Source: Hydrogenophilales bacterium CG12_big_fil_rev_8_21_14_0_65_61_21 (GTDB lineage: Bacteria > Pseudomonadota > Gammaproteobacteria > Burkholderiales > Thiobacillaceae). From it: 40,628 nucleotides of DNA. The DNA is taken from contig PFGT01000123.1 in NCBI GenBank assembly GCA_002782005.1, positions 1 to 40,628 on the forward strand, given 5' to 3'. This document shows, piece by piece, positions 1,454-13,122 of the stretch. The position numbers were made by a program, and so were the translations under genes. The notes below the pieces were generated by a model. The model saw only the letters and a program-made list of their open reading frames with translations. It searched no databases and was not told the origin of the DNA. Position 1 is the stretch's first letter. Every line of letters begins with the position of its first letter.

Positions 1454-3343
1454 CTAGGCCGCTTCGGCGAACAGGGCATAAGGCGTGTCTTTGGAACTGC
1501 CGGCGAGCAGCTTTTCCATATCCAACACCAGAACGATAGACCCGTCACCGGACAGTGTGGCGCCGGAGACACCGTTGGGTTTGATGTCGGACAAGGGCTT
1601 GATGACTACATCATCGCGGCCAACGAAGCCGTCCACCGCCAGGATAAAGTCGTGGCCGCCGACATGCATCAGCACACCATAAGCCGGCGCGCATTTGATC
1701 TCCCAGTCCAGCAAACTAGCCAGGCTACGCAGCGGCAGCACCTCTTCACGGACTACCATGGTGGCGCGCCCCGAGATACGCTGCACTTCGCTATGACGGA
1801 TTGGAATGATTTCCCGCACCAGTGATAGCGGCACAGCGAAGGACTGATTGTTCAAGCGCACAACCAGCACCGGCAGGATGGCCATAGTCAGCGGTAGCGA
1901 AATGGTGATGGTGGTGCCTTGTCCGCGGATTGATTCGATGTCGATCTTGCCGTTCAGTCGGGCGATATTGGTCTTCACCACATCCATGCCCACACCACGT
2001 CCAGATACGCTGGATATCTGATCCTTGGTGGTGAAACCGGGCAGAAAAATGAGTTGTAGACTCTGCTGGTCGTCCAAACAGTTGGCGGCCTCGGCGTCGA
2101 TCAGACCCTTCTCGACCGCCTTGGCGCGGATAACGTCGGGCTGCATACCACGACCGTCGTCGGTAATTTCGATGTAGATGTGGTCGCCAACCTGGCTGGC
2201 AGACAGGGTGACCAGGGATTTGCCCGCTTTGTTGGCGGCCTGGCGTTCCTCGGGTGACTCTATGCCGTGATCGACGGCATTGCGCACCAGGTGTACCAAT
2301 GGGTCGTTGAGGTCCTCGATCATGGTTTTGTCCAGTTCGGTCTCCTCGCCGGATAGCACCATTTCGACATCCTTGCCAAGTTGTCTGGCCAGATCGCGCG
2401 CCAGACGGGGGTATTTCTGAAACAACCGGCCGATCGGTTGCATCCGAGTCTTCATCACTGCGTTTTGCAAATCGGATACCAGCAAGTCAAGTTGATTGAC
2501 CGCCGAATCCAGCGCCTTGATGGTTTCAGGAGCCATGTTGCCATGAACAATTTGCGTTTTCAGGTTACCAATGCGGTTCTTGGTCAGGCCGATCTCCCCC
2601 GATAGATTGAGCACCTGATCCAGGCGTGTGGTGTCGATGCGGATTGTGGTCTCTTTTTGCAGGCTTTGTTGCGGCACGCCGGTACTTGATCGGGGTGGCT
2701 GACTATCCTTGGGCGGCGTTGCGGCAGCGTGGTCCGATGAGCCGACGTGATCCGGTTCCGTATGACCATGCTCGTCTGATTCGGCCACGGCAGCGGCTTG
2801 TCGGGTTTCCGGAATACCGGTGAGGGCCGAGTGCAGTGACTGCCAATCGATATCGGCCGCAATGGCTGAACTCTGGCTGGCGGCCGGCGTCCCGTCATCA
2901 ACGACAGGTTTAGACGCCTTGACGGCGATGGTTGCCGCCTGGGTCGGCGGGACTCCTGCCAACGCCGTATCCAGGTTGGCCAGCAAATCGCTTGCAGCGG
3001 TCGGCGGTTGCACGCCTTGTGCGAGGTGGCCAAACATATTTTGGGCTGTGCCGGTCGCATCCATGATGACGTCCATCAACTCCGGCGACAGACGCAGTTC
3101 GCCATTGCGCAGTTTGTCAAACAGATTTTCAGTACGGTGACAAAGGTTGACCAGCGCCTCTGCATTAAGAAACCCTGCGCCACCCTTGATGGTGTGGAAA
3201 CCGCGGAATATATCGTTGAGCAGCGCTTTGTCGTCTGGACGCTTTTCTAACTCAACCAGCTTGCTATCGACATCCGATAGCAGTTCGCCCGCCTCTTGCA
3301 GAAAGTCCTGAAGCAGGTCTTCCATGCCCCCGAAATCACTCAT
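1454..3343 (-). CDS. cheA: Chemotaxis histidine kinase CheA
   Basis: A 629-aa cytoplasmic kinase that phosphorylates CheY (and CheV) in response to chemoreceptors. An N-terminal HPt domain carries the phospho-accepting His50 in HTIKGGA. Residues about 130-230 are Ala/Pro/Ser-rich with no recognisable P2 response-regulator-binding domain. The P3 dimerisation helices run from about 233 to 300. The HATPase has an N-box (H351-LVRNAVDHG), G1 (DDGRGM, about 395-400) and G2 (GRGVGMD, 448-454). A CheW-like P5 domain fills about 485-620. The start has a strong AAGGAG site. It lies 18 bp downstream of cheZ in a five-gene che operon. No cheW gene is present in this window. Confidence 0.97.
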   Translation of the reverse strand: MSDFGGMEDLLQDFLQEAGELLSDVDSKLVELEKRPDDKALLNDIFRGFHTIKGGAGFLNAEALVNLCHRTENLFDKLRNGELRLSPELMDVIMDATGTAQNMFGHLAQGVQPPTAASDLLANLDTALAGVPPTQAATIAVKASKPVVDDGTPAASQSSAIAADIDWQSLHSALTGIPETRQAAAVAESDEHGHTEPDHVGSSDHAAATPPKDSQPPRSSTGVPQQSLQKETTIRIDTTRLDQVLNLSGEIGLTKNRIGNLKTQIVHGNMAPETIKALDSAVNQLDLLVSDLQNAVMKTRMQPIGRLFQKYPRLARDLARQLGKDVEMVLSGEETELDKTMIEDLNDPLVHLVRNAVDHGIESPEERQAANKAGKSLVTLSASQVGDHIYIEITDDGRGMQPDVIRAKAVEKGLIDAEAANCLDDQQSLQLIFLPGFTTKDQISSVSGRGVGMDVVKTNIARLNGKIDIESIRGQGTTITISLPLTMAILPVLVVRLNNQSFAVPLSLVREIIPIRHSEVQRISGRATMVVREEVLPLRSLASLLDWEIKCAPAYGVLMHVGGHDFILAVDGFVGRDDVVIKPLSDIKPNGVSGATLSGDGSIVLVLDMEKLLAGSSKDTPYALFAEAA

Positions 3344-5539: not shown

Positions 5540-6481
5540 TTAAGTCAACATACGAGAAAGGACTTCAGCGAGCCGCATGGGCTCGAATTTTGGCACGTAT
5601 TCATCGACTCCAACCGAAACGCCAAGACTACGGTTAGCATCCGATGACAGTGAAGAGTGCATAAGTACGGGGATACCGGCAAACCGAGGGTCGCTCTTGA
5701 TGCGTTTAGTTAATACATATCCATCCATTTCTGGCATCTCCACATCGGTCAACACCAACTGGATGTAATCCTTGACCGGCCGGCCCGAAACCTCTGCTTG
5801 AGCGGCGAGTTTCAGCAATGTTTCCCAGGCATCGCGACCGTTGATAGTCGGCACAGACTGTACTTTTAGCGCTTCGAGCGTGCGGGCAATCTGGTTTCGG
5901 GCGACTGACGAGTCGTCGGCATAGAGTATGGTGCGATCCGGTTTTGATAATGGAGTCAGGTTGCCGAACAGATGATCGTCGTCGATGTCGGTGGTCTCAG
6001 CCAGTATTTTCTCGACATCCATCATCATTACCAGCCGCTTGTCCTTCAATTCAGTCACCGCCGTTACCAGGCCACCCATGCGGGCAGTCAGCATCTGTGG
6101 CGGCACGCGCATCTCGGACCAGTCTATACGCAGGATGGTATCCACCTCACCGACCAGGAAACCCTGGGTATGGCCATTGTATTCGGTGACAATCATGATC
6201 GATGGCGGGCTTTCGGTCGCGATACCGATGTATTTGGACAGGTCAATCACCGGGACCAAGGCGCCTCGCAGGCTGACCATGCCTTCCACCGCCGACGGCA
6301 TCTCCGGGGCGCGGGTGATTTCAGGAATGCGCATGACCTCGCGCACCTTGAATACATTGATGCCGAAAGTCTCCCTGCGCCTCGTATTCGAATCGGTCCC
6401 GAGCGTGAACAGGAGTATCTCCAGCTTGTTTGCGCCGGCCAGTTTGGTACGGGCATCAACGCGGCGTAATAAGTCTGACAT
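5540..6481 (-). CDS. cheV: CheV coupling protein (CheW-receiver fusion), copy 2, first gene of the che operon
   Basis: A 313-aa protein with the same layout as the adjacent CheV: CheW-like domain about 15-165, receiver about 183-313 with Asp189/Asp190, Asp246 (LTDVEMPEMDGYVL) and Lys298. The ATG at 6481 is chosen because AAGGAAAA lies about 8 nt upstream and the length then matches copy 1. An in-frame ATG at 6520 has no Shine-Dalgarno sequence. Relative to copy 1 it has a small insertion (DSNTRRRE, about 30-37) in the coupling domain. It is the promoter-proximal gene, about 100 bp from a FliA-type promoter (6582-6608). Confidence 0.94.
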   Translation of the reverse strand: MSDLLRRVDARTKLAGANKLEILLFTLGTDSNTRRRETFGINVFKVREVMRIPEITRAPEMPSAVEGMVSLRGALVPVIDLSKYIGIATESPPSIMIVTEYNGHTQGFLVGEVDTILRIDWSEMRVPPQMLTARMGGLVTAVTELKDKRLVMMMDVEKILAETTDIDDDHLFGNLTPLSKPDRTILYADDSSVARNQIARTLEALKVQSVPTINGRDAWETLLKLAAQAEVSGRPVKDYIQLVLTDVEMPEMDGYVLTKRIKSDPRFAGIPVLMHSSLSSDANRSLGVSVGVDEYVPKFEPMRLAEVLSRMLT

Positions 6482-6581
6482 GTGATTTTCCTTCGCCACA
6501 GGCAGCAGTTGTCTGGCCATTCAGGAAGCGCAAAACCAGCAAGAATAAACGTACGGGCATTGACTTCCTTGGTCCCGCTTA

Positions 6582-8599: not shown

Positions 8600-10066
8600 C
8601 TAACCTGGTACGCTGCTCGCGGAGGCTTGTTCAGGCAGGGCGATCAGGACACTCATCACCTGCTCGGAGGCGTCCTCCATGCGTTGCAACTCGGCAAAAA
8701 CACGCTCCATCTGCGCCGTATCGTTTTGCCAGGTTCGTTGGTGAGTCAACGCCAGCATCTGCCGCACCGCATCATGCACTGCGGCATGAGGACGGTCGAT
8801 TTCGCGGAAGGCTTCGAGTTGGCCGAATTGTTCCCTGCCCTCGCCTGCATACCACTTGCCCAAACGGCAGTTGTGATGGTCCACGTCTACCTGTTGGCGT
8901 AGCGACTCGTCGCCCGCCACAATGGTCTGATAGGCGCGCTGCTTGTAGACCACATGATCGCATTTGGTCAGTGATGCGAAGGCGACGGTGAGTGCCGTTT
9001 TCGCCCGGCGCAGCGTTTCGCTTGAGCGGCTGACGATCTGGCTGAACTCGCTCGATATGTCGGCAGCGGCGCGACCCGATTCCTCGGTAATGGCGCGCAT
9101 CTCCTCGGCGCTAACCACCATAGACTGGGTTTCGCTCACCAGCGCTTGCATGGTGTTGCCGATCTGCATCGCCGCGTCCTTGGAGTGACCGGCGAGCTTG
9201 CGCACTTCATCCGCCACCACCGCGAAGCCGCGCCCCGCCTCGCCAGCGCGAGCCGCCTCAATCGCGGCATTGAGCGCCAGCAGATTGGTCTGATTGGCCA
9301 GAGCATGAATGGTGTCGATGGCCTGGTTTATTTCGCTGCTCTTAGCGGATAGATCCAGGATCGCCGCGCTGACCTCGCCGATCAGCGCTTGCAGGCGCTG
9401 AAAGCCCTGGTGCATGGCTTCGACCGCCACGGCGCTTTCGTTCGCCTTTTGCGATGAGCCACTGGCTAGGTCGATCACTTGTTCCTCTTCCTTAACTATC
9501 CGGGCAAAGTCGGCCTGGGTAAGCGCTAGGTCGGGAATAAGGTGAGCAGCGTTGAGGCTCTGAACTCGAACCACCATGTGGTTATATGCTTCGGCTTGCT
9601 TGTGTTTGCTAATGGATGCCAATACGGTGTTGAAGGTATTCAGCACATGGCTATAGTCGCCCACCTGGCCAATAACCTGGGCGTGGCGCGCGGTATAACC
9701 CGCTTCCTGGGCCGTCAGCGCACCGCTCATTTCACGAAAGGCGGCTTCGATGCGGTCCATGGCATCATTAAACGCAGTCACTACCGGCGCCAGACTCCGG
9801 GCGTCAGAGACGTGCGTCAGGCGGCTGGATAGATGACCGTCGGCGATGTCGGCCGCCATGCGGCGAATTTTTTCCATCCAGGCATTTTGGCGCAGGCGGT
9901 GGCGCGCGCAAACCACGGCCAGCGCCACCGCCATGAGGGCGAAAACCAGCGGCCACCATGGGCCGCCCGCCAGTGTGCCTGCCAGCGGCCCGGCCACGGC
10001 CAGCGCGCCGAGGATGCCGCTACCCCAGGCCGTATCAAAGATCGAGAACGAACGCTGTGTAGTCAT
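8600..10066 (-). CDS. CetA/Aer-like membrane chemoreceptor with C-terminal zinc-binding CZB domain
   Basis: A 488-aa receptor. Two membrane helices (about 17-33 and 38-55) have almost nothing between them, so it cannot sense periplasmic ligands. HAMP-like linkers follow, then a signalling tip ([20 protein letters not shown]). The C-terminus is a CZB domain with putative zinc ligands His371, Cys400 (motif CRLGKWY), His427 and His431. The start codon lies inside the 3' end of the PAS gene (32-bp overlap), so the two are translationally linked. This arrangement matches the Campylobacter CetA/CetB split of the E. coli Aer aerotaxis receptor. CZB domains in other receptors report zinc or hypochlorite; that role here is inference. 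The ATG at 10066 is preferred over a GTG at 10075, which is too close to AGGAG. Confidence 0.9.
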
Positions 10067-10562
10067 TTTTTCCACTCTCCTGAATCAGTCGTTGCAATAC
10101 CGCCAGCCCTTCTGCCGGCGCCTGACTGCCGGAGGCTCGCGTCTCCGCCGCCAGCATGGCGCGGTAAATGGGCTCAATGAGGTTAATGGCTTCACGGCGC
10201 GGCTTGCGCCGTACCGAGTAGTAGCCGGTGATGCGCCCGGCGGCGTCGAAATCCGGCGTCACCGTGGCATAGACCCAGTAAAAACCGCCATCGGCGCTCA
10301 TATTCTTGACGTAGCCGAGAAATTCCTTGCCGGCGCTGATGGTGTCCCACAGCGCCTTGAACACGCCGCGCGGCATGTCGGGGTGGCGGATGATGTTGTG
10401 CGGCGCGCCCAGCAGCTCGTCCTCGCTGTAGCCGGAGAGGTCGATGAAGATGGGGTTGCCGTAAAGAATCTTGCCGCGCGTGTCGGTTTTCGAGGTAATG
10501 AATGCGTCGTCTGGAAGCACGCGTTCACGCCGGTTCGGGATGGCTTTACTTGATTTCGACAT
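10035..10562 (-). CDS. Aer-type PAS sensor protein (CetB-like), partner of the downstream receptor
   Basis: A 175-aa soluble protein with a single PAS domain of the Aer class. Typical segments are [27 protein letters not shown] and [12 protein letters not shown], the FAD-binding type used for redox and energy taxis. The C-terminal tail (about 120-175) resembles the segment that follows PAS in Aer proteins. There is no membrane helix and no signalling domain, so it must act through the overlapping receptor gene. The ATG at 10562 has an AAAGGA site 8 nt upstream; an upstream in-frame start at 10655 falls in a repeat element. FAD binding is inferred from the family. Confidence 0.88.
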
Positions 10563-10610
10563 CGTAAGAAGTCCTTTCGCTTTTTTAACGTGAGACGCAC
10601 GAGTCCATAG

Positions 10611-10709
10611 GACGGGCCGTACCCGCCGCAACGGCGCCGAGTGAACGGCGGCCATGGACCGCCCTATGGCGTTTCATGATTTTGGGAGGCGATGCGCCAT
10701 GATCGTTAG
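10611..10709. repeat. Palindromic repeat, copy 2 (modules A and B separated)
   Basis: Module A (GACGGGCCGTACCCGCCGC, 10611-10629) is separated from module B (TGATTTTGGGAGGCGATGCG onward, 10677-10709). Module B is almost identical to 29849-29881. Between them is a further palindrome (GGCGGCCATGGACCGCC). The TAA stop codon of the chemoreceptor gene at 10706 is supplied by the end of module B. Confidence 0.7.
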
Positions 10710-12325
10710 ACACGGAATTGGCCTACAAGCTGTTGCAGTTCAGTTGCGATATGCGATACAGCCTCCGCTGCCTGGGCGGCCTGGCGGATGCTTGCGGAGT
10801 TTTCCTGGGCAAGCGCCGAAATTTCACCCATGTCGCGTGCTACGTTCTCCGTAGCAGAGGTCTGTCCCTTGGCGCTGTCGGCAATATGGCCGACCTGTCC
10901 GGTGACTTGGTTTGCGGCCTCAACGATTTGTCCCAGCGCATCACTGGTCAAGCTGTTGTAGTTGGCGCTTTCCTGCACCTCGCGTTTGACTTCACCCATG
11001 GCTGCCACGGCCGCTTCGGTCTCAGCTCGGATGGATTCGACCCCTCCGGATATTTCGCTGGTGCTGGAGGATGTACGTTCGGCAAGCTTTCTCACTTCAT
11101 CGGCGACGACGGCAAACCCCCGTCCCTGCTCACCGGCGCGCGCCGCTTCGATGGCGGCATTGAGCGCCAGCAAGTTGGTCTGGTCGGCAATCTCCTTGAT
11201 GACAACGGTAATCTGGCCGATTTTCTGGATAGAGTCGTTCAGGTTGCCGACGATGTTGGCCGAGCTATTGGCCGTCGCAACCACCTTTTCCATGGCGCCT
11301 CGGTTCTTTGCCATATTCGCATCGCCTTGATGTGCATACTCTTCGTTGCGGAGAACTGTTTCGCCCGCGCCGTTGGCGAGGCTAGCCACTTCTGAATTGG
11401 CTATACGGATATTTTCCATAGCCGTAGCGATATGCGTGACGCGTTCGCTCTGTGCAACCTCGCGCGCGACTATCTGTTCGATCTGATGTGACAAATCGGC
11501 CGAGGCACTTGCAGCCTTGCCGGCCGCAGTTATTACGCCATCCACGATGCGCATGAGATGTGCCGTGGTGTTTTCCAGCGATTGCCCCATTTCGCCGAGC
11601 TCATCCTTGCGTTTGAACGGCACGGTGGCAGTCAAATCGCCTTGCGCTACCTTGTCAAGGGTGCCTTTCATGGCCTGGATGCCGCGATTTATATCAGCCG
11701 AGAGCATGCCGCTGCCAATCAGCAATATCAGTATGCTGACGCCAAATATGCCCAGCCCGGTATAAATCAATTTTTTGCCACGTGCGCGACCCTTTTCATA
11801 GGTATCCTTGACTGCCGCTTGCTGGTAGGAGGCCACCTGCGAGAGGGGTTTCAACAAGTCACTTTGGAAAGCAGGCCATTCATCCTCCAGCAATCCGGTG
11901 ATGCTTTTTTTGTCGTCGCCCGAATAGGCCGCTTCCAACTTGTCCCAAAAAGCCGGCAGTGCGCCAAGCTGCTTATCGATTTTTGCGATCTGGCCGCGTG
12001 CTTCGTCGCTAAAGGTATTGTCGCGGGTTTTTTCCTTGAACAGCGACCATTGCCGGGGGATGCTCACGCGGACCTCATTCAGTTGGTTTTTCGCGCCTGG
12101 CGCTGACATCTGGTCCAGCAATACGCCCGCCATTCTGAAACGGATTTCCATCAGGCCATGTTCTATTTCCTGAAGGGCTATGGCAGGCGCAACCTGATTG
12201 TCGTAAACCGTGGCAAGCGCCTCGTCGCCTTGTTTGACGCTGTACATGTTGACCGCAGCCAGAACGAGCGAGACGGCTCCAGCAATTAGGCCGAGAAGAA
12301 ACATTTTGGCTTTCAGGCTTTTCAT
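10706..12325 (-). CDS. Methyl-accepting chemotaxis protein linked to a periplasmic rhodanese
   Basis: A 539-aa chemoreceptor: TM1 about 7-29, a helical periplasmic sensor of the four-helix-bundle (TarH-like) type about 30-185, TM2 about 188-208, HAMP about 210-262, then a signalling domain with the conserved tip ([19 protein letters not shown]). The start ATG at 12325 has only a distant GGAAG. It lies 75 bp after the rhodanese gene on the same strand and probably belongs to the operon that starts at the FliA promoter 13096-13122. The pairing suggests the stimulus may be a sulfur compound or another periplasmic substrate processed by the rhodanese; that is inference. Its stop codon lies within a dispersed repeat. 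Confidence 0.92.
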
Positions 12326-12400: not shown

Positions 12401-12853
12401 TTATTCAACCGGCAGTCCTTTGGCCTTCCACTCCGGGAAGCCGCCGCGGAACCAGTACACCTTTTTGTAGCCTGCCTTGATCGCGGCTACGGCACCCTTG
12501 TAGCTCTTCCAGCATTCTGGGCCATTGCACTGGGTGATGATGGCGGTGTTCTTGTTGCCAGGCAGTTTAGAAACGTCGAAGTTGTCCTGGCTGGCATCGA
12601 AGTCAGCGGCTTTCGCGCTTTTTTCCTTGTAAGGTACGTTGACGGCGCCTTTGATATGCGCTTCGGCGTATTCGTTAGCCACGCGCGTGTCAATCAATTT
12701 GGCGCCACCATCCATCAGAGATTTTGTCTTGGCGGCGTCGACAACTGCGGCTCCGGCAAGGCTGGCAGGGGTTTCTACGGCCAAGGCGGCGCCAGCGGAA
12801 ATGAAAGCGCAGACAGTAATCATTGAAAGGAAAGCGGTTTTAGCGAGTGTCAT
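12401..12853 (-). CDS. Exported rhodanese-like sulfurtransferase
   Basis: A 150-aa protein with a signal peptide (hydrophobic about 8-25, likely cleavage after ALA) and one rhodanese domain. Family hallmarks are LIDTRVANEYAEAHIKGAVNVP (52-73), the active-site loop starting at Cys109 (CNGPECWKS), and the closing GGFPEWKAKGLPV. A second cysteine, Cys114, sits in the same loop. Rhodaneses carry sulfane sulfur on the loop cysteine; the substrate is unknown. The start has a strong AAGGAG. It lies between a 54-aa small gene (39 bp upstream) and a chemoreceptor gene (75 bp downstream), all on one strand. Confidence 0.9.
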   Translation of the reverse strand: MTLAKTAFLSMITVCAFISAGAALAVETPASLAGAAVVDAAKTKSLMDGGAKLIDTRVANEYAEAHIKGAVNVPYKEKSAKAADFDASQDNFDVSKLPGNKNTAIITQCNGPECWKSYKGAVAAIKAGYKKVYWFRGGFPEWKAKGLPVE

Positions 12854-12892
12854 GATGTTGTATCTCCTTGATCGGGGTAAGTTGCTGCTGTG

Positions 12893-13057
12893 TTAAAGGA
12901 GCCTGGCGGACTTATGATGAATCGGCTGCAAATCCGACAAGCTACTAGCTAAAGCAATCGAGGCGCCGCAAGCAAACAAAGCGCGAGCCACTCGCCCATA
13001 CCTATGCGGATAACCGCCAGTCTGGCGTAATGAATCGTCGATAGTTGCTGCTTTCAT
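12893..13057 (-). CDS. Small protein of 54 aa, unrecognised, preceded by a FliA promoter
   Basis: A short open frame beginning MKAATIDDSLRQTGG and ending HHKSARLL. The ATG at 13057 has AAAAGGAG about 10 nt upstream, and a near-consensus FliA promoter ends about 40 nt upstream of the start. Residues about 20-41 (YGRVARALFACGASIALASSL) are moderately hydrophobic with basic residues before them, so a membrane helix or export signal is possible. There is one cysteine (Cys30). I do not recognise a family. The next gene downstream (39 bp) is the exported rhodanese. The last 13 codons overlap a 35-nt bipartite element repeated at 39185. An alternative is an untranslated leader, but promoter, ribosome site and frame all agree with a gene. 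Confidence 0.6.
   Translation of the reverse strand: MKAATIDDSLRQTGGYPHRYGRVARALFACGASIALASSLSDLQPIHHKSARLL
12897..12931. repeat. Bipartite 35-nt element, copy 1
   Basis: Plus strand AGGAG-n-CTGGCGGACTTA-n5-AATCGGCTGCAA. The copy at 39185-39219 is identical except for the single n and the 5-nt gap (29 of 35 positions). On the minus strand this copy is inside the 54-aa gene and encodes LQPI-HH-KSARLL. Confidence 0.7.
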
Positions 13058-13095
13058 TCTTGGCAATCTCCTTTTGCGTCCGTTTGCCAGACCCT

Positions 13096-13122
13096 ATATC
13101 GGCAATTCCGCTAAATTCTTTA
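13096..13122 (-). promoter_or_regulatory. FliA (sigma-28) promoter for small gene-rhodanese-chemoreceptor
   Basis: On the minus strand, TAAAGAAT (13115-13122), an 11-nt spacer, then GCCGATAT (13096-13103). Against TAAAGTTT-N11-GCCGATAA the match is 6/8, exact spacing and 7/8. Transcription would begin near 13089, about 30 nt before the ATG of the 54-aa gene, with AAGGAG in between. Confidence 0.85.

Follow-up and report, generated by a model that had tools for sequence, protein, structure and literature searches.

We identified a rhodanese and a chemoreceptor, encoded side by side, that probably form one sensing unit in which the predicted periplasmic rhodanese serves as the sensing partner of the receptor. 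The pair lies on the minus strand of the window (the whole 40,628-nucleotide stretch of DNA that was analyzed), a contig of a 2.27-Mb draft genome. The window is a flagellar-chemotaxis region with fliL, fliM, and fliN on the plus strand; its minus strand encodes CheA-, CheY-, CheZ-, and CheV-like proteins and four of the five receptors of the whole genome. The promoter, a 54-aa open reading frame (ORF), the rhodanese gene, and the receptor gene follow one another on this strand (Table 1), with gaps of 39 bp between the ORF and the rhodanese gene and 75 bp between the rhodanese and receptor genes, as the first-pass annotation of this DNA had reported. Searches for Rfam and tRNA features gave no match. 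Elsewhere on this strand, the gene for a receptor that carries a zinc-binding CZB domain at its C terminus (8600-10075) begins inside the gene for a small PAS protein (10035-10565), and the two together (8600-10565) look like a split aerotaxis-type receptor.

Table 1. Features of the rhodanese-receptor locus, in window coordinates
Feature	Position	Strand	Basis
Sigma-28 (FliA) type promoter	13096..13122	-	TAAAGAAT-N11-GCCGATAT; 24/27 to consensus
54-aa ORF within leader, probably no gene	12893..13057	-	Codon usage, no homologue, no family match
Single-domain rhodanese, 150 aa, predicted exported	12401..12853	-	PF00581 69.9 bits; AlphaFold pLDDT 97
Loop CNGPECW (Cys109, Cys114, Trp115)	12509..12529	-	C-x4-C-W invariant in 48 receptor-linked homologues
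Chemoreceptor: four-helix-bundle sensor domain, HAMP, MCP signalling domain	10706..12325	-	PF12729, PF00672, PF00015 above cut-off
Sensor domain, rhodanese-linked type	11759..12262	-	Alignments; AlphaFold four-helix bundle, pLDDT 88.8
Conserved membrane-distal tip: helix 1 end, loop, helix 2 start; receptor residues 60-82	12080..12148	-	14/23 strongly conserved columns

Homologues of the rhodanese were found in two forms, either free-standing and putatively exported or as the C-terminal domain of a protein with an N-terminal PhnD-like (PF12974) domain. In a first survey, all 10 close free-standing homologues outside the window lay directly upstream of a four-helix-bundle (4HB) receptor. The sensor domain of this receptor was present in 12 of 101 relatives, and 11 of these 12 were exactly the genomes that encode a close free-standing rhodanese, directly adjacent to it. 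Association with soxB was uninformative, since soxB was present in 71 of the 101 relatives. Among 76 free-standing copies drawn from a GTDB-wide scan and from order and class samples, a receptor was encoded directly downstream in 58, directly upstream in 2, and convergently in 1, and 15 had none; these are automatic calls that include a few duplicate records, the distinct sequences numbering 73, with 57 followed by a receptor. The neighborhood search proposed in the first-pass annotation thus found the linked chemoreceptors that it anticipated. Because the GTDB-wide scan used receptor-linked seeds and their best 80 matches, it may over-represent linked copies; in the order and class samples, which were drawn independently of linkage, the linked proportion was lower in more distant branches. 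One of the 15 unlinked copies (L088) is on a contig that ends inside a gene starting like the receptors of Nitrospirota relatives. None of the 44 fused PhnD-like/rhodanese copies had a receptor within 2.6 kb, and receptors of the same type without an adjacent rhodanese were found at L183 to L190. The separation of the two genes in related genomes had been named as an observation against their partnership; the close clade is linked (11 of 12 genomes), and distant branches include unlinked copies.

The 58 same-strand linked copies span the Beta- and Gammaproteobacteria, Nitrospirota, and Bdellovibrionota, and their other surroundings differ. The pair is also present in cultivated bacteria, Paucibacter sp. 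KBW04 (L086) and Azohydromonas sediminis (L135). With five receptors in 2.27 Mb, the chance of such an adjacency in the window genome is well under 1%. The two genes might be merely coregulated neighbors in a flagellar region, with the rhodanese acting as a housekeeping detoxifier, given that rhodaneses are common and that the window is a flagellar-chemotaxis region. However, the pair also recurs outside flagellar regions, in several phyla and with changing neighbors, and 61 of the 76 copies are adjacent, which is beyond chance; we consider this explanation very improbable. This recurrence of the pair, in dozens of gene neighborhoods that are unrelated in other respects, makes a sensing partner of the receptor, acting outside the inner membrane, the most likely role of the rhodanese.

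No genes other than the rhodanese and the receptor were shared when the window was compared with its four nearest relatives. The closest named relatives of the window rhodanese were those of Sulfuricella and of Gallionellaceae metagenome-assembled genomes. In the tree, the window copy grouped with Sulfuricella, Gallionellaceae, and Sulfuriferula (support, 100/94), apart from the copy of its genus mate. The Sulfuriferula rhodanese (L068) is 78% identical and adjoins a receptor from another 4HB group. In the genome from the window's own genus (G005), the pair is located elsewhere, its rhodanese is only about half identical, and the neighbors of fliL differ. These data are most simply explained if the pair has moved between lineages.

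The promoter upstream of the pair had a score of 24 out of 27 to the Escherichia coli sigma-28 consensus. It was the joint best site in the 40.6-kb window, and no equally strong site occurred in 10 shuffled windows, which bears out the near-consensus sigma-28 promoter noted at first pass and places it suitably for a member of the FliA regulon. A site of equal score, TAAAGTTT-N11-GTCGATAT, lies at 6608-6582 on the minus strand, upstream of a CheV-like gene (5540-6520). Sigma-28-like sites were also found upstream of the rhodanese gene at 20 of 53 homologous loci (about 40%), when sites with a score of 20 or more in the 140 nt before the gene were counted and T[AC]AAG was accepted as part of the -35 box. 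By comparison, about one would be expected: we counted 1 in control stretches, 2 on the antisense strand, and 1.25 in shuffled sequences. These sites suggest that flagellar coregulation of the pair is recurrent but not universal. Together with the conserved linkage and the codivergence described below, they reinforce the earlier proposal of a rhodanese placed under flagellar control with its own receptor.

In the relatives with such a site, the distance from the site to the rhodanese start was 57 to 135 nt, whereas in the window it is 269 nt, so that the 54-aa ORF falls in an unusually long leader. The first-pass annotation had described this ORF as a frame with a ribosome-binding site. The site is good, but the frame is probably no gene: its codon score was -0.225, compared with 0.22 to 0.49 for 18 genes of the window and a median of -0.17 for other ORFs of 45 to 75 aa, and it had no match in family libraries. 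No homologue was found upstream of any related rhodanese, and the suggested link between a 54-aa protein and this rhodanese subfamily was absent from every related rhodanese-receptor locus. We therefore rejected a conserved small protein on the basis of the noncoding-like codon usage and the absence from related loci; the stretch is probably leader sequence. A 22-residue likeness (QTGGYPxRY) of the ORF to the N terminus of an approximately 325-aa protein in relatives was at chance level and was also discarded. This conserved protein with QTGGYPxRY is encoded at L148 (about 1510-1578, minus strand), and the same stretch of the 54-aa ORF recurs among the weak matches.

Next, we examined the receptor. 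Its signalling (PF00015, 143 bits), HAMP (PF00672, 36 bits), and sensor (PF12729, 31.5 bits) domains all scored above the cut-off, which identifies it as a methyl-accepting chemotaxis protein and upholds the earlier description of a four-helix-bundle chemoreceptor behind the rhodanese. The AlphaFold model of the sensor domain was a four-helix bundle with helices at residues 2-48, 54-78, 86-114, and 118-167. Its closest structure matches, all weak, were to a histidine kinase sensor domain and to the receptor domains of MCP2201, Tsr, Tar, and Vc1313, and a sequence search returned no solved homologue of substance. In an alignment of 48 linked receptors, 23 sensor-domain columns were at least 85% conserved, 14 of them within residues 60-82. 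Estimated via helix positions rather than coordinates, the conserved columns averaged 15 Å from the membrane-distal end, compared with 35 Å for the others, and none of 20,000 random draws was as extreme. Several of these columns differed in the 15 family receptors that lack a rhodanese directly upstream: all 15 have Ala in place of Gly46, and Arg43, Pro53, Gly56, Glu126, and Lys138 were relaxed. Maltose-binding protein docks at the distal tip of Tar, and the conserved tip is a candidate docking surface for the rhodanese. A small-molecule site is also possible at the distal tip of 4HB domains, and a small-ligand site could look similar, which counts against the docking reading. In addition, pairwise divergence of the rhodanese was correlated more strongly with that of the sensor domain (0.80) than with that of the signalling domain (0.69), and the partial correlations were 0.62 and 0.31, respectively.

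The first-pass annotation had also called an exported rhodanese after the 54-aa frame, and the rhodanese itself was confirmed. The protein matched PF00581 with 69.9 bits against a cut-off of 22.2, and the fold matches of its AlphaFold model were rhodaneses. Its N terminus, read by eye, resembles a signal peptide at approximately residues 1-25, and the protein is thus predicted to be periplasmic. The CNGPECW loop carries the active-site cysteine expected of a catalytic sulfurtransferase, as judged from the sequence, and the C-x4-C-W loop was invariant across 48 close, receptor-linked pairs. In five copies of one distant branch (L167, L168, L169, L176, and L178), both loop cysteines were replaced (e.g., by YSDGPTGWKSYKA), although these copies lie beside receptors or other sensors; L168, L169, and L176 adjoin receptors.

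The rhodanese could act enzymatically on a compound such as thiosulfate, sulfite, or persulfide, by producing, removing, or converting it, while the receptor senses this compound alone, the two sharing a pathway without contact. The invariant loop of the close pairs suggests chemistry and counts against a pure binding partner, and in a sister clade the rhodanese adjoins a YeiH-type protein, of a family linked to sulfite resistance (PMC12880088). However, the three receptor-linked copies without either cysteine indicate that catalysis is not always needed and that cysteine chemistry is typical of the partnership, not essential to it; a binding role accounts for these copies better than an enzymatic role does. 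The codivergence specifically with the sensor domain also argues against separate action. We regard an enzyme acting without contact as unlikely, though a serious alternative to the sensing partner. A further mechanism, in which the rhodanese switches the receptor by covalent sulfur transfer (persulfidation of a receptor cysteine), would draw on the textbook cysteine persulfide of rhodaneses, but the window sensor domain contains no cysteine and the receptor family has no conserved cysteine column. It was rejected on this ground and is hardly credible.

A sensing partner of this kind has counterparts among binding-protein-assisted chemoreceptors, namely, maltose-binding protein with Tar, LsrB with Tsr, and galactose-binding protein with Trg. 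Like these, the window pair combines a predicted exported protein with a four-helix-bundle receptor that has a candidate docking surface at its distal tip. In contrast, the partner here is a rhodanese in place of a transporter's periplasmic binding protein, and it is co-encoded with, and dedicated to, a single receptor. In arsenite sensing by AioX-AioS-AioR with a neighboring Mcp, a periplasmic oxyanion-binding protein acts first and the receptor gene is linked (PMC5908839, PMC7533571). PhnD-like domains do occur in relatives of the window rhodanese; however, AioX signals to a histidine kinase, whereas the window protein has a PF00581 domain only, without the PhnD-like PF12974 domain of an AioXSR-like system, and it is paired directly with a chemoreceptor. 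The window protein also resembles TIGR03865 (PQQ-dependent catabolism-associated CXXCW protein), an exported rhodanese-like family with a CW motif, but its score of 51.3 bits was far under the cut-off of 128.05, and no PQQ dehydrogenase was seen among the neighbors. It shares its fold and the position of the catalytic loop with the single-domain thiosulfate sulfurtransferases PspE, GlpE, and the rhodanese domain of YgaP, and differs from them in the second loop cysteine followed by Trp and in its receptor linkage; the PspE and GlpE models scored far below cut-off. A search of open-licence PMC literature for a rhodanese with chemoreceptor, PilJ, or CXXCW returned nothing relevant by title or abstract, and we found there no earlier description of a rhodanese as the sensory partner of a chemoreceptor.

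Most of the other free-standing copies adjoin different membrane proteins. In seven copies of the sister clade (L160, L161, L164, L165, L166, L172, and L173), the rhodanese precedes a PF03601 (YeiH-family) protein, a transporter-like membrane protein outside the window pair. Salmonella requires YeiH for resistance to sulfite (PMC12880088), and these neighbors hint at sulfur oxyanions. Rhodaneses also lie upstream of histidine kinases (L170 and L177) and of GGDEF-EAL proteins (L178 and L179, the latter with a separately encoded PhnD-like protein intervening). Taken with the receptors, these neighbors mean that most surveyed free-standing copies adjoin a transmembrane signal protein. Separately, six PhnD-like/rhodanese fusions (L047 to L052) directly precede a Pil-Chp-like cluster of PilG/H-type response regulators, CheW, a PilJ-domain receptor, and a Hpt-rich ChpA-like kinase, and these fusions are possibly a periplasmic input to the twitching system. 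A broader and more tentative idea, which we consider possible but doubtful, is that periplasmic rhodanese domains make up a general class of sensor subunits that detect reactive sulfur or some other soft oxyanion. These domains would plug into chemoreceptors, histidine kinases, cyclic di-GMP enzymes, and, as the PhnD-like fusion, the Pil-Chp twitching system, and would sense by means of a persulfide or disulfide in the loop that alters how they dock on the transducer.

For the window pair, we propose a rhodanese that is exported to the periplasm and whose C-x4-C-W loop would bind or react with a small ligand there. A reactive-sulfur ligand is plausible, and the ligand would probably be a sulfur oxyanion or a reactive sulfur species; thiosulfate, sulfite, and a persulfide are examples. 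The rhodanese would then dock on the membrane-distal tip of the four-helix bundle of its partner receptor and alter signalling to CheA, as maltose-binding protein does with Tar, in a response that may be to an attractant or to a repellent. FliA would drive the pair in the window genome and thereby couple production of the sensor to that of the flagella. Ligands are known for few chemoreceptors, and a dedicated, co-encoded rhodanese and receptor would provide a two-gene handle on sulfur-compound taxis in sulfur-oxidizing and other bacteria. The pair suggests, furthermore, that several kinds of transmembrane signalling have adopted an enzyme fold as a sensor subunit.
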